Of a DNA stretch of 39,724 nt, positions 18,498 to 37,579 are shown one piece after another; within the stretch, counting starts at the first letter, position 1; the number at the start of each line of letters is the position of its first letter. The translations under genes and the position numbers were made by a program. The notes beneath the pieces were generated by a model, which was given only the letters and a program-made list of their open reading frames with translations, searched no databases and had not been told where the DNA came from. This DNA is from a virus, in the IMG/VR virus record IMGVR_UViG_3300020125_000201, positions 1 through 39,724 of that record, one strand, 5' to 3'.

Positions 18498-19289
18498 ATG
18501 ACGCTGCTGCAGGACGGGATCACCGCTGCCGGGTTCGCGGCTGCCCCCACGACGGGGCCGCCGTACCGGCCGAGCGCGTACGGGCTGCTGGCCACCGTCC
18601 CGGTGACCGACAACGCCAGCCTGCGCCTGGCCCCCGCCACGTTCCTGTCCCAGGCCGCGCCCGCCCTGACCGGGGAGTCGGTGACCGACCCCTGCACCGT
18701 GTGGGCCAAGGCCCCGAACATTCCCGAGGACTGGCTGACCACGGCGCAATTCGCGCTGTACGGCTACTGGAGCTGCACCCCGGTCGGCTACACCCTGGCC
18801 GAGGCCACGAGCCGCGCCCACGACGGCTACATGGCCGGGGAGGCCGCCGGGCTGGAGAAGCTGCTGTGGGCGTGGATGCTGGCCAAGGCAGGGACGCCCA
18901 CGGCGGCCACCGGCAGCCAGGTGGCGCTGGCCGCCGCTGAGCTGGCCATCGCCCGCCAGTACGGGGGCGAGGGCACGCTGCATATGGACCGATCCAGCGC
19001 CATCATGCTGGGCACCCACCTGGAGCGGTACGGGTCCACGCTGCGCACCGTCGCCTGCTACACGCCGGTGGTGGTCGGGGACGGGTACGGCCCGATCCCC
19101 GGGGTGCCCGGGGAAACCCACATCATCGCCACCGGGCCGGTCACGGTGACCCGCGGCCCGCTGGTGGACGTGAGCAACCCGCCCATCGTGGACCGTTCCC
19201 TGAACGACCTGGCCGCCCTGGTGGAGCGCACCTACCAGGTGGCCATCGACCTGCCCGCTGTCGTGGCCGTCACGGCTACCACCCCGTAG
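18498..19289 (+). CDS. probable head structural protein next to the major capsid gene
   Basis: A 263-residue protein with a weak TAAGG upstream of the ATG. It contains a long alanine-rich helix (EKLLWAWMLAKAG), and GTLHMDRSSAIMLG and the strand THIIATGPVTVTRGPL. Proteins of this type follow the capsid gene in many actinophages; the strand and loop order suggests a capsid-like or head-associated fold. It could be a minor capsid or decoration protein. Confidence 0.68.
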   Translation: MTLLQDGITAAGFAAAPTTGPPYRPSAYGLLATVPVTDNASLRLAPATFLSQAAPALTGESVTDPCTVWAKAPNIPEDWLTTAQFALYGYWSCTPVGYTLAEATSRAHDGYMAGEAAGLEKLLWAWMLAKAGTPTAATGSQVALAAAELAIARQYGGEGTLHMDRSSAIMLGTHLERYGSTLRTVACYTPVVVGDGYGPIPGVPGETHIIATGPVTVTRGPLVDVSNPPIVDRSLNDLAALVERTYQVAIDLPAVVAVTATTP

Positions 19290-19298
19290 GAGGACACC

Positions 19299-20195
19299 GT
19301 GCCCACCGGCTGCACCACCACCAAGTTCGCCAGCATCAAGGCCCGCCGCATCCGAGTGACCGCCGTGGACAGCTGCGGCGCGCCGGTCGTGGGGGAGTGC
19401 TCCACGATCGTGTCGTCCGGGTTCGTCAGCGTCGGGGCGTCGGCCCAGGTGGAGGACGGCCAGGAGTTCACCGTGAAGAACGCCTGGGGCGAGTTCTGCA
19501 TCAACGAGAAGGACGACAGCCGGGTGAAGCGGTGGGACCTGACCATCACCCTGTGCGAGGTGGACCCCCAGCTGCTCGCGCTGCTGTCGGGCGGCCGGGT
19601 GTTCTCCGGGCCGGGCAGCCCCCCCACCGCCATCGGCGGCACGTTCGGGGAGACGGTCGGCACCGATTTCGCGCTGGAGCTGTGGACAAAGGTGGCCGGT
19701 GGATCGTGCGCCGAGGCCGCCGGGGGCGGCGCCGCCAGCTGGATTTACTGGGTGTTCCCGCACGTCAAGGGTGGTGTGATCGGGGACCTGACCTTCGAGA
19801 ACGGCCCGCTGTCCATGGTGATCACGGCGAACACCCAGGGCGCCGGGAGCGACTGGGGCCTGGGGCCGTACACCCCGGCGATCCTGCCCGAGGCCCTGAT
19901 GGCCGACGAGCACGTGGGCTACGTGGTCACGAGCGCCGAGCCGCCCGACGACACCTGTGGGTGCGAGGCCATGGCCGGACAGGCCGCGGTGGGTGCCAGC
20001 GCCGGGACGCCGGGCCAGTGGTCGCCGCCGGGCAGCACGCCGCCCGCCGACGCCGCCGCCGCCGAGACGGCCGGGATCACGGCCACGCCGAACACCGCCT
20101 GGACGACCGGGCAGTACGTGCAGGGCGCCACGAGCGGCACGGCGGGCGAGATGCACTGGGACGGCACCGGCTGGGTGACGGGGATGGCGCCGTAA
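19299..20195 (+). CDS. probable major tail protein with C-terminal decoration module
   Basis: A 298-residue protein with a GTG start 5 bases after AGGAGG (19288-19293). RIRVTAVDSCGAPVVGECS and AQVEDGQEFTVKNAWGEFC, plus LTFENGPLSMVITANTQG, match actinophage major tail proteins. The last 70 residues are a separate module (TAGTPGQW-like, then TAWTTGQYVQ and W-GTGW), nearly repeated in the small protein at 20195. A tail tube subunit with an exposed C-terminal domain is the best reading. Its place upstream of the connector genes is unusual. Confidence 0.72.
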   Translation: MPTGCTTTKFASIKARRIRVTAVDSCGAPVVGECSTIVSSGFVSVGASAQVEDGQEFTVKNAWGEFCINEKDDSRVKRWDLTITLCEVDPQLLALLSGGRVFSGPGSPPTAIGGTFGETVGTDFALELWTKVAGGSCAEAAGGGAASWIYWVFPHVKGGVIGDLTFENGPLSMVITANTQGAGSDWGLGPYTPAILPEALMADEHVGYVVTSAEPPDDTCGCEAMAGQAAVGASAGTPGQWSPPGSTPPADAAAAETAGITATPNTAWTTGQYVQGATSGTAGEMHWDGTGWVTGMAP

Positions 20196-22423: not shown

Positions 22424-22451
22424 GAAATCTACGAGAAGTTGTAGCCCCTGC

Positions 22452-22479
22452 TTGCGTTCCACCCGAGGGGGACTAGAGT
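22452..22479 (+). promoter_or_regulatory. cassette promoter P4, leaderless, for gene 22487
   Basis: TTGCGT (22452-22457), a 16-base spacer with CCACCCGAGGGGGAC, TAGAGT (22474-22479), 7 bases, then ATG. It is inside the structural region, far from the other cassettes, and drives a single gene followed by a terminator. Confidence 0.78.
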
Positions 22480-22486
22480 GGTGGGC

Positions 22487-22912
22487 ATGAGCCAATTCGA
22501 CACCACCACCGACACCGACCTGGACCTGGACCCCTACGAGCTGGCCGAGCTGGCCGGTAAGGGCATGGACCACTACCGGGCGCTGGCCGCTGAGGCCGCC
22601 GCCGCTGGCGACACCGCCGCCGTCGCCTTCTACACCGAGGCCGCCGAGGGCATGGAGCTGACCTACCTGGCCGAGACGATCGGCTGGCTGTGGGAGTCCT
22701 ACGGCGAGACGCTGGCCCAGTACCGCAGCGAGTGCGCCCTGTACGGCGACGCTGGCCCCGGCCAGGCGCTGGACGTGCGCCGCTGCCGCGAGGCCGCCGA
22801 GGCCGCCGAGCGCCGGGCCACCTACCTGGAGGACACGCTGGGCCGTGGCCCGGAGCGCCGCCCCACCGCCATGGACGTGCCCGGCCCGGCATGGGACGAC
22901 GAACCCTTCTGA
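22487..22912 (+). CDS. MSQFD-start hypothetical protein in a moron-like unit
   Basis: A 141-residue acidic, helical protein starting MSQFDTTTDTDLDL. The ATG at 22487 is 7 bases after TAGAGT; a GTG three codons earlier lies in the initiation region. The body (ELAGKGMDHYRALAAEAAAAG, FYTEAAEGMELTYLAETIG) looks like stacked helices. With its own promoter and terminator between tail completion and chaperone genes it has the layout of a moron, an insert expressed apart from late genes. Function unknown. Confidence 0.85.
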   Translation: MSQFDTTTDTDLDLDPYELAELAGKGMDHYRALAAEAAAAGDTAAVAFYTEAAEGMELTYLAETIGWLWESYGETLAQYRSECALYGDAGPGQALDVRRCREAAEAAERRATYLEDTLGRGPERRPTAMDVPGPAWDDEPF

Positions 22913-23668: not shown

Positions 23669-26600
23669 GTGCCCGCCGGTGGAGTCCTAGCTGAGGCGTT
23701 CGTGGAGGTGGGCCTGCGGGCCACCGGCTTTGAGGCGGCGGTGGAGTCCCAGGTGGAGGGGCCGCTGAAAGAGGTGGCCGTCACCGCCGAGAAATCGGGC
23801 GTGCAGATGGAAGAGGCGTTCACCACGAGCGCCGAGCGCAGCGCCCAGCGGCTGCAGGAAATCCTCAACGGCGATGCGTTCGTCCAGCTGCGGGCGGCCG
23901 CCGCCGAGGCCGGGGCGACCGTGGAAGCGTCCATGGCCGAGGCCGCCGCCGGGAGCGACGCCGCCCTGTCCACCATCGGGGACACCGCCTTTGCGGACGC
24001 CGCCGCCGAGGCCGAGGCCACCGCCGCGCTGATCACCGACGCCATGGACGGCGCCGCCATCGAGTCCGACGCCGCCCTGGGCACGATCGGGGACACCGCC
24101 TTCGTGGACGCCGCCGCCGAGGCGGACGTGGCCGCCGGGAGCATCGCCGCGTCGTTCACGGCCGCCGCCGTGGAGTCCGAGGCCGCCCTGGCCGGGGTGG
24201 GGGCCGCGGCGGGCGCGTCGCTGGCCGAGACGGGCGCCGCCGCTAAGGGCGCGGCGGGGGGCCTGGGGCTGATCGGGAAGGCCACCGGCGCGGTGACGGT
24301 CCTGGCCGGGCTGGGTTTCGCCGCCAAGAAATTCCTGGACGCCGGGCGGGAGTCCACCCGGGTGGGGAACGTCACGGCCGCCGTGATCAAGTCCACCGGC
24401 GGGGTGGCCGGGGTGTCGGCCCAGCAGGTGAACGACCTGGCCACGAAGCTGTCGCTGCTGACCGGCATAGACGACGAGGCCATCCAGGGCAACGAGAACC
24501 TGCTGCTGACCTTCACGAACGTGCGCGACGCCGCCGGGGCCGGGAACGACGTGTTCACCCAGACGGTGGGCCTGGCGCAGGACATGGCCACGGTGCTGGG
24601 CACCGACGCCAGCGGCGCCGCCCTGCAGCTGGGTAAGGCCCTGAACGACCCGGTGAAGGGCATCACCGCCCTGGCCCGGGCCGGGGTGTCGTTCACCGCC
24701 GACCAGAAAGAGCAGATCAAGGACCTGGTGGCCCACAACGACCTGCTGGGCGCCCAGAAGGTCATCCTGGGCGAGGTGACCCGGGAGTTCGGCGGGGCCG
24801 CCACCGCGGCCGCCGACCCGATGGCAAAGCTGGCCGTGCAGCTGGGCAACGTGGCCGAGGCCATCGGCCAGCACCTGATGCCGGTCCTGACGCCCGCCCT
24901 GGACGCCGTGACGAGCTTCGCCAGCATCCACGCCGAGGGGATCGGGGCCGGGGTCGGGGCCGCCGTGACCGGCCTGGCGTCGGGGTTCGCCAGCCTGGCC
25001 CGAGTCGGGTGGGCCGTGATCGGCCCGGGCCTGGAGACGGTGTTCGGGTGGGTGGAGAAGCTGGGGCCGCTGGTCGCGCCCCTGGCCGACGACCTGGCCC
25101 GGCTGGTGAAGGACGCCCTGGAGCCGCTGGGCACGTGGGCCGCCAACAACCAGGGCGCCGTGGACGCCATCAGCACCGGGCTGGTCACGCTGGCCAGCAG
25201 CATCGGGGCGATCCTGCTGGTGTCGAAGGGGGCCAGCACCATCACGACCATGGCCAGCGCCCTGGGGGGCCTGTTCAGCGCGGCGGGCGAGGGCGGCGCG
25301 CTGGCCGCCCTGGCGAACCCGGTGGGCATCGTCATCGCCATCGTGCTGGCCCTGGGGGCCGCCGCCGTCGTGGCCTACCAGAAGTGGCAGCCGTTCCGGG
25401 ACGCCGTGGACGCCACCGCCGGGTTCTTCATGGACACCGTGTGGCCCGCCATCCAGAACGTGGCCAGCGCCCTGAACGACACCCTGGGGCCTGCCATCTC
25501 CACCGTGACCGGGATCATCTCCGGGGTGGACTGGGGCGGGGTGTTCGACACGCTGAGCAGCGCCGCCGCCGCCGCCGCCGGGGCCGTCGTCAAGTCGAAG
25601 GACGCCATCGTGGGGGCGTTCAACGCCGTGGCCGGGACCATCAGCCGGGCCATCGGGCCGACCGTGGATTTCCTGATCGGCCTGTGGGCGCAGTACGGCG
25701 ACGAGGTGACCGGCATCCTGGTCGGGTTCCGGGACATCGCGGTGGCCGTGTTCCAGCGGGTGGCCGACGTGGTGACCACGTTCGTGTCCACCGTGCAGGC
25801 GGTGCTGGTGCCCCTGTTCGATTTCCTGTCGGCCGCCGCTGACGTGGCCTTCACGGTCCTGGCCGCCCAGGCCCAGGTGGCGTTCGACCTGATCACGACC
25901 GCCGTGCAGACGTTCGTGGACTTTATGACGCCCATCTGGCAGGCCCTGTGGGGGTTCGTCAGCGACGTGGTGACCGGCGCCATCGGCCCGATCCGCGACG
26001 CCATCGAGGGCATCCTGCGGGTGATCCAGGGGGCCGTGGACATTATCGCGGGCATCTTCACCGGCGACTGGGGCCGCATCTGGGACGGGGTGAGCGAAAT
26101 CGTGTCGGGCGCCGTGGAGCTGGTGATGGCCCAGCTGGACCAGGTGCTCAACTTCCTGTCGGCCGTGTGGACCAACGCGGAAGAGCTGATCACCGCCCCG
26201 TTCCGAGGCGGGTGGGCCGCCCTGCAGGACCTAGTGAGCGGTGGCGTCGCCATCGTGGAGGACCTGTTCAACGGGGTGCTGAATTTCCTGGGGAGCGTGT
26301 GGAAGAACGCCACCACCCTGATCACCGCCCCGATCCAGGCCGCCATCGCCCTGGCCCAGGGGTTCATCGGCCAGGTGGTCAACGTGATCGGGGAGCTGCC
26401 CGCGAAGGCCGCCGGTGCCCTGGTGGGCCTGGCGGGCAGCATCGCGGGCGCCATCGGGGACGCCGCCGTGGCCGCCGTGAGTAAGGCCGGGGAGCTGGTC
26501 ACTGACGTGGTGACGAAGATCGGGGAGCTGGCCAGCAAGATTCCGGGCGCCCTGGCCAGCCTGGGCGGGTCCGTCGTGAGCGGCCTGGGCAGCATGTTCA

Positions 26601-26956: not shown

Positions 26957-29034
26957 TGCCCGGCGGGCAGGACCCCCTGAAGAACACCGGGCCGGTCACC
27001 GAGGCCGGGCCGAAGCTGACCCCCCGCAGCGCCTGGCCGTTCACGTCCGCGCCGGTGCCGCCGGTGGCGATCGTGGGCGACGGCGGCACGACCCGAGCGA
27101 ACCCGCTGGCCGCCAGCGCCGGGGGCCTGCCCGTCAACGTGCCGCCCCTGTCGGATATGTGGCAGGTGATGCTGGACGGGCGGCTGCTGTTCGGCCGAGG
27201 GTCCGGCATCGGGATCAGCGCCTACACCGGGCTGGGCCTGCCCGACCAGCGCAACAGCGACGTGGCCCTGCCGTCCGAGCATGGCGTGGTGGCCCTGGGC
27301 GACTACCACACCGCCCGCCAGCTGGTGTTCAACCTGTGCATCAACGCCCGCACGCTGGCCGGATGCGACGCCGCCACCGTCGGGCAGTCCGACGACCCGG
27401 CTGCCGCCGAGGCGTGGGACGTGCTGCGCTACATCGCGGGCGTGTGGCAGGCCCGCACCACCGACGTGCTGCTGGAGATGCGGATGACCACCGGGCAGTC
27501 GTACATGCTGCTGGGCCGCCCCCGGAAGTTCGACGCCGACACGACCCTGCTGCGCAAGGGGCAGCTGGCCATCGCCGCCGAGTTCATCGCCACCGACCCC
27601 CGGCTGTACAGCGTGACCCTGGGCGCCCGCACCCTGCAGCTGGCCAGCCCCGACGACGCCAGCCTGGCCAGCTTCTGCCTGCAGGCGGGCACGCCGGTCA
27701 CGCCGGGAGGCCAGCCCGCCCAGATGGTCACGCCGAGCGGCACCGCCGTCCAGATCGGCAACGGGTTCTCCAGCAGCGCCGGGATGACCTTCTGGCCCCT
27801 GACCAGCCTGGTCAGCGGGGTGGCGTGGTCCGCGATCGGGCTGGCCGCGGCTGCCACGACCAGCGCCGCGGTGAGCCGCATCCGAGCCAACAGCGGCACC
27901 GAGGCCCTGCCCGCCGGGGCCACGACCCTGACGTTCGGGGTGCAGCAATTCGCGGACGCCGGGCCGTGGGGCTGGGCGGGCCAGTCGTTCACGCCGACGG
28001 CGGACCTGGACCAGATGGGCCGGATCAAGATGGGCCGCACCGACGGGTCGGTGAACATCGCCTGGGACCCGGGCACCTACCTGCGGCTGATGGACGGCGC
28101 CACCGAGCTGGCCCGGGTGACGGTCCCGGCCAGCGGCGCCGGGATGCCCCTGGAGCTGCCGTTCGACTACACGTTCCGAGCGGGCCACACCTACAGCGTC
28201 CAGATCAACCTGCCCGCCCCCGCCACCGTGTGGACGCTGAGCGGCATCGGCGGCCACAGCGACGGCATGTACGCCTTCTACAGCAAGGACCGCATCGCGC
28301 TGCCGCCGTTCGGGGTGGGCACCCTGCTGACGCCGCCCGCGACGGGGGACTGGACGATCAAGGGCAGCGTCCGCACCGGCACGAACCCGCTGGGGCAGTC
28401 CCTGACGCTGCTGCGCAACGGCCTGCCGATCGCCAACGGGTGGATGGCCCCGGCGAACAACGGCCTGGCCGAATTCACGACCGCGGCGCCGGTCCATTTC
28501 GTGCCCGGCGACTGGCTGGCCCTGGTCGGGCTGGGCACCGGGAACAGCAACGTGACCCAGCTGGCCGCCGCCGACGGCATCGCGCCGGGCGTGACGATGA
28601 CGGCGAGCGGCCCGGCGGGAACCGATCCGGGCGGGGGCTTCTGCACCAGCCAGGCGCCGTGGGGATCAGCCACGTGCGCCATCCAGCTGCCGCTGCTGAT
28701 CAACGGCGAGGGCATCCTGACCAACCGGGGGAACACCGACAGCCTGCCCATCGTCACCTTCTTCGGCCCCGCCGACCACCCGACGATCACGAACGCCACC
28801 ACCGACCGGCAGCTGGGCCTGGCCTACGTGCTGGCCGCCGGGGAGCAGGTGCAGGTCAACATGCGCACCCGCCAGGTGTTCAAGGGCGACGCCCCGACGA
28901 CGCCCCGGTACGACCTGCTGGCCACCGCCGCCGACTTCTGGCCGCTGGTGCCCGGCGAGAACGACGTTCGGCTGCGCCAGGCCGGACGACTCGCGACCGC
29001 AGCCACGCTCACGTGGCGGGACGCCTGGCTGTAG
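26956..29034 (+). CDS. distal tail / baseplate-type minor tail protein
   Basis: A 692-residue protein starting in the TGATG overlap with the tape measure gene. The order after the tape measure, plus GRLLFGRGSGIGISAYTGLG, PSEHGVVALGDYHTARQL and the arginine-rich strand region, matches siphovirus distal tail proteins that begin the tip complex. The C-terminal half has several strand-rich modules (GHTYSVQINLPAPATVW) that could bind carbohydrate. Confidence 0.8.
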   Translation: MPGGQDPLKNTGPVTEAGPKLTPRSAWPFTSAPVPPVAIVGDGGTTRANPLAASAGGLPVNVPPLSDMWQVMLDGRLLFGRGSGIGISAYTGLGLPDQRNSDVALPSEHGVVALGDYHTARQLVFNLCINARTLAGCDAATVGQSDDPAAAEAWDVLRYIAGVWQARTTDVLLEMRMTTGQSYMLLGRPRKFDADTTLLRKGQLAIAAEFIATDPRLYSVTLGARTLQLASPDDASLASFCLQAGTPVTPGGQPAQMVTPSGTAVQIGNGFSSSAGMTFWPLTSLVSGVAWSAIGLAAAATTSAAVSRIRANSGTEALPAGATTLTFGVQQFADAGPWGWAGQSFTPTADLDQMGRIKMGRTDGSVNIAWDPGTYLRLMDGATELARVTVPASGAGMPLELPFDYTFRAGHTYSVQINLPAPATVWTLSGIGGHSDGMYAFYSKDRIALPPFGVGTLLTPPATGDWTIKGSVRTGTNPLGQSLTLLRNGLPIANGWMAPANNGLAEFTTAAPVHFVPGDWLALVGLGTGNSNVTQLAAADGIAPGVTMTASGPAGTDPGGGFCTSQAPWGSATCAIQLPLLINGEGILTNRGNTDSLPIVTFFGPADHPTITNATTDRQLGLAYVLAAGEQVQVNMRTRQVFKGDAPTTPRYDLLATAADFWPLVPGENDVRLRQAGRLATAATLTWRDAWL

Positions 29035-29043
29035 GAGGCCCCG

Positions 29044-30192
29044 ATGACCGAGCGCCAACCGCCCCTGTGGATCGACGGGGGCTGCTACACCGGCGAGGAC
29101 CTGCGCGCCATGTTCGCCACGATGACGCCGTGCCCCAACGGCGGGGTGCTGGGGCCGACCGACATGGCCGTGACCGCCCCCGGCGGCCTGCAGCTCCAGG
29201 TCGGGGCGGGCGGCTGCTGGGTGCCGGGCACCGACCAGGTGGGCCAGGGGCCGTACCTGTGCACCAACCCGGACCCGACCATCCTGACCGTGGCCGGGGC
29301 CGACGCCGCCAACCCCCGCATCGACCTGGTGATTGCCCGGGTGTACGACCCGAGCTACGGCGGCACCGGGCAGCCCCGCTGGGCGCTGGAGATGGTGAAG
29401 GGCACCCCGGCCGCATCGCCGCAGGTGCCCGCGGCGCCCACATCGTCCTACGTGCTGGCCCAGGTGACCGTCCCGGCCGCCACGCCGTCCATCGCCGCCG
29501 GGAACCTCACCGACCGGCGGACGGCCTGCTCCACCGGGACCGGCGGCAGCCCGACCGGGACGCTGGCCCCGTTCGCGGGCCTGGCCGCACCGGCGGGGTG
29601 GCTGCTGGCCAACGGCGCCGCCGTGAGCCGCACCCTGTACGCCACCCTGTTCGCGGTGGTCGGCACCCGGTTCGGGGCGGGCGACGGCACCACGACCTTC
29701 AACCTGCCGAACATGCAGGGCCGTGTCCCGGTGGGGGTGGACGGCAGCGCCGAGTTCCCGAGCGTGGGCGCAGCGGCGGGCACGAAGGCCGCCAACATGC
29801 CCAGCCACAACCACACCGGGGCCGTGTCGGCCGCCGACCGCAGCCTGAACCACCAGCACAGCCTCAACTTCTGGTCGGGCTACCAGGCCACCGACTACAA
29901 CGATCCGCACCACATTCACCGGCCGGTCGGCGCGGGGTGGGAGTTCGTGGTGCAGGCCGGGCCGGGGACGGGCAACCTGTCGGCCGCCATGGCCAACATC
30001 GGCGGGGACCGGGCCGTCAGCTCCACGCCCATCACGCTGAACGAGGAACCGGGCCAGCATCACCACTTCGTGTCCGGCTGGTCCGACGCCAACCAGGGCG
30101 GGGTGGACCACCTGCACTACATCGCTGCCGACGGCGGTGGGGGCAACAACCTGCCGCCCTACCTGACCCTGACCTACATCGTCCGGTACTAG
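29044..30192 (+). CDS. minor tail protein with tail collar domain
   Basis: A 382-residue protein; AGGAGG (29033-29038) stands 5 bases before the ATG and its TAG is shared with the previous stop. Residues about 175-240 form a phage tail-collar domain (PAGWLLANGAAVSRTLYATL, RFGAGDGTTTFNLPNMQGRV). The C-terminal part has HNHTG, HQHS, HHIH and HHHF histidine clusters and ends LPPYLTLTYIVRY, typical of metal-binding fibre tips. Probable receptor-side tail protein. Confidence 0.85.
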   Translation: MTERQPPLWIDGGCYTGEDLRAMFATMTPCPNGGVLGPTDMAVTAPGGLQLQVGAGGCWVPGTDQVGQGPYLCTNPDPTILTVAGADAANPRIDLVIARVYDPSYGGTGQPRWALEMVKGTPAASPQVPAAPTSSYVLAQVTVPAATPSIAAGNLTDRRTACSTGTGGSPTGTLAPFAGLAAPAGWLLANGAAVSRTLYATLFAVVGTRFGAGDGTTTFNLPNMQGRVPVGVDGSAEFPSVGAAAGTKAANMPSHNHTGAVSAADRSLNHQHSLNFWSGYQATDYNDPHHIHRPVGAGWEFVVQAGPGTGNLSAAMANIGGDRAVSSTPITLNEEPGQHHHFVSGWSDANQGGVDHLHYIAADGGGGNNLPPYLTLTYIVRY

Positions 30193-30197
30193 CCGCC

Positions 30198-31259
30198 GTG
30201 CAGGTCCTGCTGGCCGACGCGCTCACGATGCGGGTGCTGGGCCTGTTCCCGCACCTGGGCGTCCACTACAGCCTGACCCTGAACGGGCCGGGGAGCGCCA
30301 CGTGGGTGGTGTCGGTGCCCGCCTGGAACGACCTGGTGGCCGCCGGGATGGGCGTGGCCCGCACCTGGGTGTACATCGTGGACGAGCAGGCCGACGACGA
30401 GCGGGTGGAGTGGTGGGGGCTGCTGTGGTCGGCCACGATCAGCCCGCAGGCCCACACCGTGCAGCTGGCCGCCGCCGGGGTGCAGACGGTCCTGGAGCGC
30501 CGCACCAACCGGGCCGACCTGACCTACACCCAGCAGGACCAGGCCGCCATCGCCCGGGACCTGGTGACCCAGGCCCAGACGGGCACCAGCCGGGACCTGC
30601 ACATCGACACGAGCGGGGTGGCGAACACCGGGGTGCTGCGCGACCGCACGTACGTGGGCATCGAGCGCAAGCGGTTCGGGCAGCTGCTGTCGGACCTGTC
30701 GGCGGTGATCAACGGGTTTGACTACCGCTTCGACGCCTACTGGTCGGGGGGCGGGGTGTCCCCGACCCATCAGCTGGCCCTGGTGTACCCGGCGCCGAGG
30801 ACCAGCCCGGTGCTGACCGTCGTGGCCCGGGGCAACGTGACCCTGGCCCAGGTGGCGATCGTGGGCACGAACATCGTGTCCGACGTGGACGGGATCGGGG
30901 CGCAGGACCTGCGGGTGACCGACCACCTGGACGTGCCCGGCTACCCGGCCCTGGACGGCGCCGTGAACCACAGCAGCGTGGTGGTGGCCGCCACCCTGGA
31001 CGAGGCCGCCCAGCGGATGCTGCAGGCCAACAACGCCCCCCGGGTGACGATGCGCCTGACGGTCCTGGTCGGCGGGGGCGAGCACCTGGACCTGCTGCCC
31101 GGCCAGGCGGTGCGGCTGCTGGAGGTGGACACCGCCTACGACCGGCTGATGGTGGTCACCGACGTGTCGGTGCAGAATGCGGGGGCCGGGCTGACCGCCG
31201 ACGTGTCCCTGGTGGAGCCGTCCACACTGGAACGCACCGACGAGGCGACCGGGCCATGA
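30198..31259 (+). CDS. minor tail protein (Gp37-like)
   Basis: Starting at the GTG 5 bases after the previous stop, it encodes 353 residues. It has a strand-rich N-terminus ([17 protein letters not shown]), a domain with [24 protein letters not shown], and an ending with [21 protein letters not shown]. This pattern matches the phage tail proteins known as Siphovirus Gp37-like. It probably belongs to the tail tip. It ends in an ATGA overlap with the fibre gene. Confidence 0.78.
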
Positions 31260-33352
31260 CCGACACCGTGCAGACGCCCACCCACCAGGCCGGGGTGCCG
31301 CAGCCGCAGCTGGGGCCGTCGGGCCAGGACGTGCTGGCGTCCACGTTCCGGGACCACGACCGGCGGATAGAAGAGCTGGAGCGCCGCCGCCAGGGTGGAG
31401 GCGGGGGCAGCGGCGCCGCGGCGGGCTACTTCGCGGCGAACATCAGCGGCTACATCGGGTCGGCCAACGCCTGGTACGTGGCCGTCATCGGCCAGGTGCA
31501 CTACGTCAACGGCTTCGCTGCCAGCTCCGGGACGGGCGTGTGGGTGGCGACGTGCTCCATCCCCGGCCGGTACAGCGTGCACGCGCAGGGCACCGTCACG
31601 CCGTCGGGCGGCACCTACGTGATCATGCGCGCCGAGGTGATGCGAGGCGGGAGCCTCTACGAGTACTTCGAGCACGTCAACGGCTTTCAGCCCGGATCGG
31701 GCTGGAACGACGCCACCGCCCTGGGCATGTTCGACCTGCAGGCGGGCGACAGCGTGCGGATCAGCTACAACGCCGACGGCGCGCACACCGGGAACGACAT
31801 GCGGGGCACGTTCCTGATCCTGCCGGTGGGCGGCCCCAAGGGCGACGCCGGGAACACCGGCGCCCAGGGGCCGACGGGGCCGACGGGGCCGACGGGGCCG
31901 ACCGGCCCGGCGAGCACGGTGCCCGGCCCGGCCGGACCGCAGGGCAACCCTGGCCCGGTGGGTCCGACGGGGCCGACAGGGCCGCAGGGGCCGGTGGGCG
32001 GCACCGAGCTGTCGGGCTACTACTTCGGGCGCATCCCGTCCACCACGGTGGGCGTGGCGGGCGCCTGGTACACGGTCGGGTTCGACAACCTGCTGCCCGA
32101 CGGCACCCCGGGCGCCGTGATGAGCGGGTTCACGCTGACCGGCGGCCACATCGCCTGCCAGCTGGCGGGCCGCTACCGGGCGTCCACCGTGACCCAATTC
32201 GCGGGCCTGGGCACCCCGGCGCACGGCGACTACGTGGTGACGAAGGTGGAGCAGTACCGAGGCGCCACGCTGGTGCGCCGCACCGGCGACACGGCGGGGG
32301 GCGGCTACACCGACTGGGCGCCGACGATGGCCGAGGGCATCTTCGACCTGCAGGTGGGCGACACGCTCCAGGTCAGCGTCATGTCCAGCGTGGCCAACCG
32401 CACGATCGACCCCCGATCATCGGTGATGGTGTTCGCGCTGGGCGGGGCCAAGGGCGACACCGGGGTAGCGGGGCCGCAGGGACCGACCGGCAGCACCGGC
32501 CCGGCCGGGCCGACCGGGCCGCAGGGGCCGGTGGGCGGCACCGACCTGTCGGGCTACCTGTTCGCCCGGCAGACGAACGGTGTGGTGGGCACCATCGCCA
32601 GCCTGCCGACCGAAACGAACGTCGGTTACAACCAGCTGGTCCGGGCCAGCGGCTGGTCGCTGCCGGGGCCGTCATCACCGACGTGCCTGCTGGCGGGCCG
32701 GTACTCCGTCGTGGCGATCACCCAGCTGTACAGCACGTCCAGCAGCGACAGCGACCACGTGACGCTGCGGGTGCGGCAGTACCGCGGCGCCGCCATCATC
32801 GAGGACCAGACCACCCACGACGCCGTGGACAACGGCAACGCCAGCGCGGGGTGGCAGGCCTACGGCGCCGTGGTCGTGCAGGTGATCATCGACTGCCAGG
32901 TGGGCGACACGCTGCTGGTGTCGGTGGCGAACGACAACAATTCCGGCCCGGCGCCGGTGCAGTCCATATCGACGCTGGCCGTGATGCCGGTGGGCGGGGC
33001 CAAGGGCGACAAGGGCGACACCGGCACGACCGGGCCGACGGGGCCGACCGGCCCGGCTGGGCCGACCGGAGCGACGGGGGCCGACTCCACCGTGCCAGGG
33101 CCGCAGGGACCCAAGGGCGACACCGGCGCCACCGGGCCGCAGGGGCCGGTCGGGGCGGCGAGCACGGTGCCCGGCCCGCAGGGACCGGCCGGACCGACCG
33201 GCAGCACCGGCCCGGCCGGACCGACGGGGCCGCAGGGGCCGCCAGGGCCTGACGAAGTGCGGATCGCCACCGCCCCGCCGACCGTCACCGCGTCCGAGCC
33301 TGAGCTGTGGGTGGACACGAGCACGCCCGCCACGCCGGTGATGCAGTACTAG
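31256..33352 (+). CDS. collagen-like tail fibre protein, part ending at an in-frame TAG
   Basis: A 698-residue protein. After a coiled-coil-like start ([14 protein letters not shown]) there are three strand-rich modules of about 140 residues (each ending in G-GAKGD or GGPKGD), alternating with Gly-X-Y collagen-like linkers. It ends [15 protein letters not shown] and then TAG. The next codons in the same frame read DGTQWVAV, a sequence that usually follows directly in such fibres, so the gene may continue as the frame at 33368. Confidence 0.85.
31832..32002 (+). repeat. collagen-like Gly-X-Y linker 1 of the fibre
   Basis: About 57 codons (fibre residues 193-249), mostly GPT, GPA, GPQ and GPV triplets, with a short break at ASTV. 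Collagen-like trimers make stiff spacers between fibre modules. Confidence 0.88.
32444..32539 (+). repeat. collagen-like Gly-X-Y linker 2 of the fibre
   Basis: 32 codons of Gly-X-Y with KGD, PQ, PT and PA triplets linking modules 2 and 3 of the fibre. Confidence 0.85.
32996..33250 (+). repeat. collagen-like Gly-X-Y linker 3 of the fibre
   Basis: About 85 codons of Gly-X-Y, with breaks at ADSTV and AASTV. The linker precedes the [11 protein letters not shown] neck and the TAG at 33350. Confidence 0.86.
33350..33352 (+). other. in-frame TAG separating two parts of one fibre frame
   Basis: The codons around it read CAG TAC TAG GAC GGC ACC CAG TGG. Both flanking parts are in the same frame, with no gap. 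TAG differs by one base from TAC (Tyr) or TGG (Trp). The downstream GTG at 33368 has no nearby Shine-Dalgarno sequence or -10 box, which makes separate starting less obvious. Confidence 0.85.
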
Positions 33353-33367
33353 GACGGCACCCAGTGG

Positions 33368-36070
33368 GTGGCCGTGTCGTCGGCCGGGGGAGGCGCCAGC
33401 ACCGCCGCCTACGCCTTCAGCGGCGGCACCGCCGGGTGGCTGAGCGGGGCGAACGTCCCGGCGAGCGGGATCGGCTACCCGAAGTGGCAGACGCCCGCCC
33501 CCATCTCCGGGTTCACCCAGCCGACCGACGCCGCCCACTTCACCTGCCAGGTAGCGGGCCGCTACGGCATCACGGCGATCGTGTCGCTGTCGGGCTTCAC
33601 GAGCATGGCCTACACGCTGGTGTCGGTGGCCATCACCCGCGCCGGGGCCACGTCCCTGCTGGGCGGCGCGTCCCAGGGCGAGACGACCGGCTGGTACGAC
33701 CAGGTGTCAGTCGAGGCCATGGCCGACCTGATGGTGGGCGACGTGGTGGCCATCCGGGTGGACGGGTCCGCCTACGTGCAGTCCGGGGGCCTGGGCCTGG
33801 ACAGCCGGGGCACGTTCACCATCACGCCGATCGGTGGCCCGAAGGGCGACCCGGGCGCGGTCGGGCCGCCCGGTGGAACGCAGAGTGGGACGAGGCGCCG
33901 CCACAGCGTCAACCAGGCGGTGCCGCAGAACGCCGCCACGCTGCTGCAGCTGGACACCCAGGTGGACCTGCTGGGCACCGAGACGTGGGCCTACGACACG
34001 ACGAACCGCTGGGTGACGATCCCGAGCGACGGCCTGTACCTGGTGCAGGGCCAGATTCAGGGCAACGGCGACGTGTGGGCCGCCACGACCACCTACGGGG
34101 CGCTGCGCATCAACGGGGTGGACGTGGCCCTGCAGTACCCGTCGGGCAGCCAGTACGACGTGATCCAGCCGGTGGCGTCCCTGCCGCTGAAGGCGGGCGA
34201 TCACGTGTCGCTGCTGCTCTACCAGAACGTGGTGGCGTCCAGCCTGGTGCGAGGCCAGGCGTCGGCGGCCGGGGCGCCGATCAGCCCCATGCTGGCCATC
34301 TGGCGGATGGGGAGCGGCGCCGCCGGGCCGCAGGGCGTGAAGGGCGACCCGGGGGACCCGGGCATCCTGGCCAACGCCAGCTACTACTACGCCACCAGCG
34401 CCCAGAACATGGTGATCGGCACGACGCCCAGCCCGATCCCCTGGCAGACGGTGCTGCAGGCGTCGGGGTTCAGCGCCACGCCGAGCGCCGCCATCGTGTG
34501 CCAGCAGCCCGGCAAGTACCGGGTGGCGGCCCAGCTGAGCGGGTCCGTGACCACGGCGAGCGCCTACCGCATCTGCCGCCTGGCGCTGTACACCAGCGGC
34601 GGGGTGGCGAAGGCCACCCGGGACGTGGTGAACCCGGCGACGCCGACCAACGGCTGGGGCACGTGGTTCGCGGAGGCCATCTTCGACATGGTGGCGGGCG
34701 ACTACGTGCGGGTGGAGCCGTCGGCGGACGTGAACATCAGCCTGGACCAGTCGGGCCGCAATTGGGTGGAAATCTCCCCGATCGGCGGCACGAAGGGCGA
34801 CACCGGGCCGCAGGGGCCGGACGTGACGCTGGTGCAGTCCAGCTCCGGGTACCTGGGCGTGTCGGCCGGGCCGGTCACGGTGAGCGTGTGGAACGTGCTG
34901 GGCTGGCTGGCCCCGGCGGCGCCGTCGTCGTTCCTCAACGGGTTCACCCTGGCCAGCAGCGGGGTCGCCAATTCCAACATCGTGTGCACCCAGGCGGGCC
35001 GCTACCGGGTGCAGGTGGAGCTGAGCGTGTACAACGGCGCCGCCACCGCCTGGACCCAGGTGCGCCTGGCCCAGTACAACGCCGCGGGCACCCTGATCGC
35101 GTCCCACGACCTGGTGGGCAACGGGATCAGCACCGCCGGGTGGTACACCGGCCCGTCCCACGAGGCCATGTTCCAGATGGCGGTGGGCGACTACATCCAG
35201 GCGTCCATGCAGCCGGGCACGACGGGCAGCAGCGTGGACGTGCGTTCATCGCTGCTGATCCAGCCGGTGGGCGGCACGAAGGGCGACAAGGGCGACAAGG
35301 GCGACCAGGGCCTGCCGGGCGGCACGATCGTGGCCGGGGGCACCACCGGGCAGCACCTGGCCAAACGGTCCAACGCCGACAATGACACCCTGTGGACGAA
35401 CCCCTTTGAGCTGGTGCTGACGGGCACCGACTTCAACGCGCTGACCACCACCGGGCTGTACTCCATCAACCGCAGCGCCACCAACGGGCCGCCGAACGTG
35501 TCGGGGAGCGTGCCCGGCATCTGCACCGTGGTCGTGTCCCCCACCGGCGACGTGATGCAGACGTTCACGGTGCTGTCGTCGGCCCTGAACGGCCAGACCT
35601 GGCAGCGGGTGAGGCTGGGGATTCCGGGCACGTGGGCCACGTGGGTGATGACCGGCGGCGACCTGATCTACACCCGGATGCAGAACCTCAATCTGGGGTC
35701 GATGAGCGGCGGCGGCGGCGACACGAATTTCTGGACCTTCACCGCGTCCCGGGACGGGTTCATCGAGGTGATCCCGGGCACCATCGAGTACGGCTATAGC
35801 GGCGGCGGCATCACCAGCGCCCTGTCCATGATCTACAGCAACAGCATCGGGTCCCCGATGGCGGGCGGCGCGATGCAGACAGCGAGCAAGGCCCTGCCCG
35901 CCCTGGGGGGCGGGGTGTGGGGCCGAGGCGACGGCTGCGCCCCGTTCATCGCGCCGATCACCGCCGGGAACACCTACGTCATCACGTGGCGGTTCAACTA
36001 CACCCCGTCCACCAGCAACTGCTATGTGCAGTCGTACATGACCCTGAAACAGTACGCCCTGCCCTTGTGA
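33368..36070 (+). CDS. collagen-like tail fibre, downstream part (same frame after TAG)
   Basis: From the GTG at 33368 it encodes 900 residues; it may instead be the C-terminal part of one 1604-residue fibre. It has four more modules like those upstream, joined by short GxY linkers (PKGDPGAVGPPGG, GPQGVKGDPGDPG, KGDKGDKGDQGLPGG). The end has IVAGGTTGQHLAKRSNADND, common near phage fibre tips, followed by a unique C-terminal head (residues about 660-900) likely to bind the receptor. It ends ahead of gene 36084. Confidence 0.85.
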   Translation: MAVSSAGGGASTAAYAFSGGTAGWLSGANVPASGIGYPKWQTPAPISGFTQPTDAAHFTCQVAGRYGITAIVSLSGFTSMAYTLVSVAITRAGATSLLGGASQGETTGWYDQVSVEAMADLMVGDVVAIRVDGSAYVQSGGLGLDSRGTFTITPIGGPKGDPGAVGPPGGTQSGTRRRHSVNQAVPQNAATLLQLDTQVDLLGTETWAYDTTNRWVTIPSDGLYLVQGQIQGNGDVWAATTTYGALRINGVDVALQYPSGSQYDVIQPVASLPLKAGDHVSLLLYQNVVASSLVRGQASAAGAPISPMLAIWRMGSGAAGPQGVKGDPGDPGILANASYYYATSAQNMVIGTTPSPIPWQTVLQASGFSATPSAAIVCQQPGKYRVAAQLSGSVTTASAYRICRLALYTSGGVAKATRDVVNPATPTNGWGTWFAEAIFDMVAGDYVRVEPSADVNISLDQSGRNWVEISPIGGTKGDTGPQGPDVTLVQSSSGYLGVSAGPVTVSVWNVLGWLAPAAPSSFLNGFTLASSGVANSNIVCTQAGRYRVQVELSVYNGAATAWTQVRLAQYNAAGTLIASHDLVGNGISTAGWYTGPSHEAMFQMAVGDYIQASMQPGTTGSSVDVRSSLLIQPVGGTKGDKGDKGDQGLPGGTIVAGGTTGQHLAKRSNADNDTLWTNPFELVLTGTDFNALTTTGLYSINRSATNGPPNVSGSVPGICTVVVSPTGDVMQTFTVLSSALNGQTWQRVRLGIPGTWATWVMTGGDLIYTRMQNLNLGSMSGGGGDTNFWTFTASRDGFIEVIPGTIEYGYSGGGITSALSMIYSNSIGSPMAGGAMQTASKALPALGGGVWGRGDGCAPFIAPITAGNTYVITWRFNYTPSTSNCYVQSYMTLKQYALPL

Positions 36071-36083
36071 CCAGGAGCAACGC

Positions 36084-36431
36084 ATGAGCTACAGCAGTCT
36101 GGCCCGCCAGGTGGCCGACACCGCCCTGATGGAGCGGGTCAACGCCGCCGCCCAGCAGGAGGCCATCGAGAACCCAGGCGTCCACGACTCCCCGTTCGCG
36201 CAGGCGATCCGGGGCAACTACGCATCGCCAGTGCAGGTGCTGGCGTGGCCGGTGTGCGCCGCCACCGAGGCGGCCTACGAGTTCGCCCTGAACAGCGGCA
36301 ACCCGAATCCGGGCGGCGACCCGGCGGTGATCACCGACGCCGACATTCTGAGCGCCGTCCAGGCCAATTGGCCGACCGAGTGGCCGCCCCCGGCCCCGAC
36401 ACCCCCGACGAACCCGCCCGTCGTCAGCTAG
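36084..36431 (+). CDS. small hypothetical protein after the fibre gene
   Basis: A 115-residue protein with AGGAG (36073-36077) 6 bases before the ATG. It reads MSYSSLARQVADTALMERVNAA, then VQVLAWPVCAATEAAYEFAL and DADILSAVQANWP, a pattern seen in uncharacterised actinophage proteins located beside tail genes. The tail is proline-rich. It shares one base with the next start. Confidence 0.82.
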   Translation: MSYSSLARQVADTALMERVNAAAQQEAIENPGVHDSPFAQAIRGNYASPVQVLAWPVCAATEAAYEFALNSGNPNPGGDPAVITDADILSAVQANWPTEWPPPAPTPPTNPPVVS

Positions 36432-36671: not shown

Positions 36672-37184
36672 GTGCGGTGGGACGTGGTGCTGCTGGCCGC
36701 CGGGGCGGTGCTGGGCGCGGCGTCGGTGGCGGCATCGACGGCGGCATACGTGGACAGCCAGACCCCGGCGCCTGCACCGCCCCCGGTCACGGTCGTAGGG
36801 CCGCAGGGTGAGCAGGGACCGCCTGGCCCGGTGGGCGCCACCGGGGCCACCGGGACACCGGGAGCAACCGGCCCGACGGGCGCAGCAGGCCCCCAGGGGC
36901 CGCCAGGAGCGACGGGCGCAGCTGGTGTGGGTAGTCAGGGCCGCGAGGGCGCAACGGGCGCTACGGGCGATCAGGGACCGCCTGGACCGCCGGGGGAGAC
37001 TGGACCCAGCGGCCCGGCCGGGCCGCAAGGGGGGGTAGGCCCGGCCGGACCGACCGGACAGGCTGGCCCGCCGGGGCCGCCGGGGCCAACCTGCCCGGCA
37101 GGCTTCACGCTCCAGACCATCGGTGTTCACGAGCGCGTGCCCGCCGACCGCACCGTGACCATCGCGGCGTGCGTTCATCCGTGA
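36672..37184 (+). CDS. collagen-like membrane-anchored or secreted protein
   Basis: A 170-residue protein from a GTG one base after the preceding stop. Residues 4-27 ([20 protein letters not shown]) form a hydrophobic signal or anchor. Residues 43-139 are Gly-X-Y triplets (GPQ, GPP, GAT). The C-terminal 31 residues hold CPAGFTL and ACVHP, with two cysteines that could bond. It lies between a small membrane protein and a sortase-fold gene, not in the tail-fibre cluster, so a cell-surface role or a second fibre is possible. Confidence 0.78.
36798..37088 (+). repeat. Gly-X-Y collagen-like repeat
   Basis: 97 codons of Gly-X-Y (residues 43-139 of the protein at 36672) with more charged triplets (GEQ, GRE, GDQ, GET) than the fibre linkers. 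Confidence 0.88.
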
Positions 37185-37579
37185 TCGCCCGGCTGGTCGC
37201 GGCGCTGCTGGCCCTGCTGACCGCCGCCGCCGTGCGGGCGCCGCACCACGACGACGAGCTGCACGTGATCACCAGGGTGGGCAGCTGGACGGCCGAGCGG
37301 GGCTGGGCGGTGATCGACCAGGGCGGGGTCGGCTTCATGGGCGAGCCGTGCCAGCACCTGCACCTGGCCGCCCACCGCACCACCCACGGCGGCCCGTTCG
37401 GGCGCATCCCCGAGCTGCAGCCCGGCGACACCGTGACCGTGTGGGCCAGCGTGGAGTGCACCTACCGCATCGACCGCGAGGGGCCGACGACCAGCAACCT
37501 GGAGCCGCCGTTCGGGGACCTGCTGATGCAAACGTCCTGGCCGGGCGGCTTCTTCCTGCTGTACGGCACCAAGGTCTAG
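37169..37579 (+). CDS. secreted sortase-fold protein lacking the expected catalytic cysteine
   Basis: A 136-residue protein with a signal peptide ([17 protein letters not shown]). Residues 66-80 ([15 protein letters not shown]) and [13 protein letters not shown] are characteristic of sortases, with the active-site His at H69. The segment that normally ends in TTC has MQTSWPGG, placing S123 where the nucleophile Cys is expected, and no later Arg-Leu-Val pattern. The other cysteines (C62, C97) are elsewhere. The gene overlaps the end of the collagen-like gene; GTG 37181 (GTGA) is an alternative start. It could be a non-catalytic binding protein or an atypical enzyme. Confidence 0.68.

Follow-up and report, generated by a model that had tools for sequence, protein, structure and literature searches.

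A long collagen-like tail fibre gene split by one in-frame TAG in an uncultivated high-GC phage: a probable recent nonsense change or consensus error

The in-frame TAG that interrupts a very long collagen-like fibre gene in the viral DNA analysed here most probably reflects a recent private nonsense change, or else a consensus error, in a gene that was ancestrally continuous. The window, meaning the whole stretch of DNA analysed, is a 39,724-base IMG/VR virus record with a GC content of 73%. The two parts belong to one fibre gene, from an uncultivated long-tailed phage with high GC, which was probably about 1604 codons long ancestrally, with a putative N-terminal anchoring part and a C-terminal region between which collagen stalks are interspersed with predicted TNF/C1q-like jelly rolls. 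A single-nucleotide difference would have turned one Trp codon into TAG in the window contig, the expected outcome being a truncated fibre of 698 residues devoid of the distal modules, or no fibre that folds at all. Comparison with related contigs suggests a derived, private TAG and a truncated fibre, and a real nonsense allele seems more likely than a consensus error. In terms of annotation, the locus is best described as one interrupted fibre gene, neither as two genes nor as a readthrough system.

The gene order of the window (terminase, portal, head morphogenesis, major head, major tail, tape measure, Dit-like, collar, minor tail, fibre) is that of a long-tailed phage. The genes for the tape measure, Dit-like, collar and minor tail proteins directly precede the fibre, which places it in the tail module, and are followed 3' of it by a small gene, a second collagen-like gene, a sortase-like gene and an amidase gene, in this order. 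The portal relatives found in GenBank are mostly from actinobacteriophages, the best ones being less than 40% identical. The coordinates of the features discussed below are collected in Table 1.

Table 1. Features of the fibre locus and its neighbours (positions in the window).
Feature	Position	Strand	Description
Minor tail protein gene	30192-31259	+	directly upstream of the fibre; PHROG match, frame map
Fibre gene, upstream part	31256-33352	+	698 aa, ATG start, TAG end; Pfam Collagen and PHROG tail fibre families
M1	31418-31846	+	predicted jelly-roll module, before the TAG
M2	32015-32458	+	predicted jelly-roll module, before the TAG
M3	32552-33010	+	predicted jelly-roll module, before the TAG; M1-M3 spaced by Gly-X-Y linkers
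Junction linker	33245-33403	+	..-stop-DG..W.AVSSAGGG, conserved with relatives
In-frame TAG	33350-33352	+	residue 699; Trp codon at the aligned position in relatives
Fibre frame, downstream part	33353-36070	+	905 codons, TGA at 36068-36070; M4-M7 and C-terminal region
GTG candidate restart	33368-33370	+	weak Shine-Dalgarno match, 13-nt spacing
M4	33404-33850	+	predicted jelly-roll module, first after the TAG
M5	33884-34318	+	different module, unlike the other six
M6	34376-34801	+	predicted jelly-roll module, carries the BclA_C match
M7	34841-35287	+	predicted jelly-roll module, after the TAG
Gene after the fibre	36084-36431	+	115 aa; homologue 3' of the fibre in L010 (51%) and L009

Beyond the fibre itself, several further observations can be made. 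The open reading frame called mechanically at 27159-31259 (1366 aa) is mostly a shadow frame, the real minor tail gene occupying only about 30192-31259. The second collagen-like protein, encoded at 36672-37184, is short, has a hydrophobic N-terminus and directly precedes the sortase-like gene (37169-37579), whose match to Pfam Sortase (4.7e-5) lies under the curated cut-off. Within the tape measure gene, a 108-nt repeat occurs twice in tandem at 23931-24149, its two copies being 79% alike. Finally, a 71-bp element occurs three times (36-106, 2391-2461 and 22434-22504), the copies being 66-85% alike and including a gene start of the form ATG AGC CA. T..; the first copy contains the promoter-like hexamers TTGCAC and TAGGGT, separated by 17 nt, with the ATG about 7 nt past the -10-like hexamer, and the sequence just 5' of 38849 resembles the element. 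This arrangement suggests that the elements may be repeated promoters for leaderless mRNAs.

Translation of 31256-36070 on the plus strand yields 1605 positions with exactly two stops, the TAG and the terminal TGA. This bears out the preliminary description of one frame split solely at 33350, together with the junction it reported, PATPVMQY-stop-DGTQWVAV, and the lengths it gave for a readthrough product (1604 residues) and for the short form (698). The downstream frame is truly coding, since its third-position GC content is 0.97 (0.95 upstream of the TAG) and it runs for 905 codons free of stops. Of the other five frames across this region, three have 23, 29 and 30 stops, against 2 and 3 in the last two. 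In the frame map of the window, no gene besides the fibre looked broken.

The modular composition of the fibre likewise extends over both sides of the TAG. Profile searches recover the Gly-X-Y repeats as Pfam Collagen (PF01391; 1e-17, four stretches), and the upstream part matches the PHROG tail-fibre families 5073, 819 and 6320. Six of the seven modules (M1-M3, M4, M6 and M7), of about 142-153 residues each, are homologous to one another, with pairwise shuffle z values of about 13-36, and also to modules in the fibres of relatives. The same modular pattern on either side of the stop, as reported initially, is thus recovered, M5 being the exception. An AlphaFold2 model of M4, the one module modelled, is an all-beta jelly roll of moderate confidence (mean pLDDT 77, from a shallow alignment), for which Foldseek retrieved TNF-family ligands, C1q and C1QL2 from the PDB (E of about 1e-5 to 8e-5, TM 0.5-0.7). 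In addition, Pfam BclA_C matches at 34385-34720, over M6, just above the cut-off, while M5 lies in a stretch that matches this family in part only. The C-terminal domain of Bacillus BclA is a C1q-like trimer. A TNF/C1q-like jelly roll is therefore the predicted fold of the repeated module, an assignment extended to M1-M3 through their homology to the modelled M4. Taken together, the Pfam and PHROG matches, the module homology, the M4 model and the BclA_C match indicate that a repeated architecture of collagen stalk and jelly roll runs unbroken across the TAG. With six predicted TNF/C1q-like jelly rolls and one unrelated module carried on collagen stalks in a single chain, the protein offers a clean example of a modular fibre.

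The interrupted codon was also compared with its counterparts in other phages. Three IMG/VR contigs (L009, L010 and L011), representing two distinct genotypes whose fibres are 97% identical, have a Trp codon at the position of the TAG, and no stop interrupts their fibres: in L009 and L010 the fibre is a single frame of 892 codons, and in L011 the frame reaches the contig end. The flanks of the junction show near-identical residues with one-to-one spacing between the window and these contigs, and, when the stop is written as X, a stretch of 231 window residues that bridges the junction aligns with L010 at E=3e-31 and 40% identity. On the evidence of the neighbouring genes, the L009 and L010 fibres are positional orthologues of the window fibre, given that a homologue of the next gene is present in L009 and is 51% identical in L010, and that the amidase further downstream is 64% identical between L010 and the window. 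A more distant contig of 47.5% GC (L070), found via the neighbour gene, has a short fibre that starts with a similar linker and carries a Ser codon at this place. Two other contigs sharing the gene after the fibre (L072 and L073) were discarded as informants on the codon, as unrelated or very short genes precede it. No close relative of the downstream half was found in GenBank phages or IMG/VR, and the junction peptide retrieved no relative among the genome contigs and insignificant matches only in the wider phage set.

Since none of the relatives found, namely two moderately related genotypes and the distant L070, has a stop at the aligned codon, parsimony suggests that the TAG arose in the window's lineage or is an error. 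The continuity of the fibre gene, as put forward in the preliminary description, is well supported by the sense codon and open frame of L009-L011, whereas the readthrough and the two fibre lengths proposed along with it received no positive support. A sense codon in relatives, which had been set down at the outset as an observation against readthrough, was found as Trp in L009-L011 and as Ser in L070, and it points to a private mutation or an error, the alternatives already named there. Nevertheless, two considerations weigh against a private change: the term "private" is based on two genotypes and one remote case, none of them close, and the downstream half shows no decay, which is what continued translation of it would predict as well. 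As regards the origin of the change, a diversity-generating retroelement was considered and set aside, no reverse transcriptase being present among the scanned proteins (a subset of the genes), and no repeats pairing with the junction were detected outside the collagen repeats.

Among the other explanations, programmed or leaky readthrough of the TAG, which would add a small share of 1604-residue fibres to those of 698 residues, appears very improbable. The intact downstream frame of 905 codons with its strong coding bias is what readthrough would require, but is equally predicted by a recent mutation. A precedent exists in Qbeta, where readthrough extends a virion protein (UGA, about 1 in 15; PMC8067240). 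The stop of the window is not conserved in the relatives found. Besides, in pseudoknot-free folding, the RNA flanking the TAG does not surpass its dinucleotide shuffles (z of +0.17 to +0.89); a stimulatory structure is not universal for readthrough. The contig, which may be incomplete, contains no tRNA gene, and TAG is an ordinary terminator in the window, ending at least five other genes (at 19287, 29032, 36429, 37577 and 38743). It is just as doubtful that a leaky TAG has become fixed in this high-GC phage lineage, with mostly short and fewer long fibres and with readthrough dosing the distal modules. Reassignment of TAG to a sense codon, in the manner of code 15, can be regarded as a negligible prospect, even though the TAG does lie in frame within a structural gene and alternatively coded phages exist in which the tail fibre is among the genes concerned (PMC9523058). 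A sense TAG would fuse 18498-19289 with the major tail protein and the Dit-like gene with the collar protein, although the downstream gene of each pair has its own Shine-Dalgarno sequence at the TAG; moreover, a single internal TAG was seen in recognised genes, and the contig, as far as it extends, has no tRNA gene. A change of genetic code was rejected, given that TAG ends other genes, two of them with TAGGAGG serving as the Shine-Dalgarno of the next gene. The same-frame TAGGAGG pairs at 19287-19299 and 29032-29044 mimic interrupted frames and are normal gene boundaries.

These two boundaries, where the Shine-Dalgarno of the following gene shares bases with the TAG (19287/19299 and 29032/29044), also lend some interest to the idea of a split fibre, which would consist of a proximal and a distal protein, the latter translated separately through coupled re-initiation from GTG 33368. 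The junction has TAGGAC before this GTG, the anti-Shine-Dalgarno duplex of -6.4 kcal/mol ranks among the best 5-10% of the background, and a start there would leave M4 intact. However, this duplex is much weaker than the -10.2 kcal/mol of the clear sites and lies 13 nt from the start, and in the GC-rich fibre gene the best 5% of the background reach -7.0 kcal/mol. The start would moreover sit within a conserved linker, which L009-L011 encode without interruption, and the distal protein would presumably lack an anchoring N-terminus. The remote L070, whose short fibre begins near a similar linker, might be taken as a parallel, but that fibre starts about 36 codons upstream of the position equivalent to the stop, not after it. 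Re-initiation at GTG 33368 is thus possible but weakly supported, and a split fibre is considered unlikely, albeit less so than readthrough. A nonsense change or consensus error in a continuous fibre gene accordingly stays the preferred explanation.

Compared with known systems, the window fibre shares with the C1q family and Bacillus BclA the combination of a collagen stalk and a module of predicted TNF/C1q fold, but differs in being viral and in bearing many modules per chain, with an identity of 10-20% at best. With the collagen-like tail fibres of phages, it has in common the Gly-X-Y repeats, the position behind the tail genes and the PHROG and Pfam matches, while it alternates several collagen segments with six jelly-roll modules; no close sequence relative of it was found in the phage collection. 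The A1 protein of Qbeta, a virion protein extended C-terminally past a stop, exemplifies the mechanism put forward in the preliminary description, yet it involves UGA, an RNA phage and a demonstrated product, whereas the window stop is a TAG that is not conserved and is known from sequence only. A further parallel is laboratory lambda, in which, according to Hendrix and Duda (1992) as related in PMC3509688, the side-tail-fibre gene stf bears a frameshift that is absent from Ur-lambda. In both cases, a long fibre gene continuous in relatives carries one small change in one genotype, and in lambda the loss of the fibre is tolerated. The change is a frameshift in lambda and a nonsense codon here, and fibre loss with altered adsorption has been shown experimentally in lambda, while the window fibre is a matter of sequence alone. 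Should the stop prove real and common in the population, the window phage would be a counterpart in nature to the fibre loss seen in laboratory lambda.
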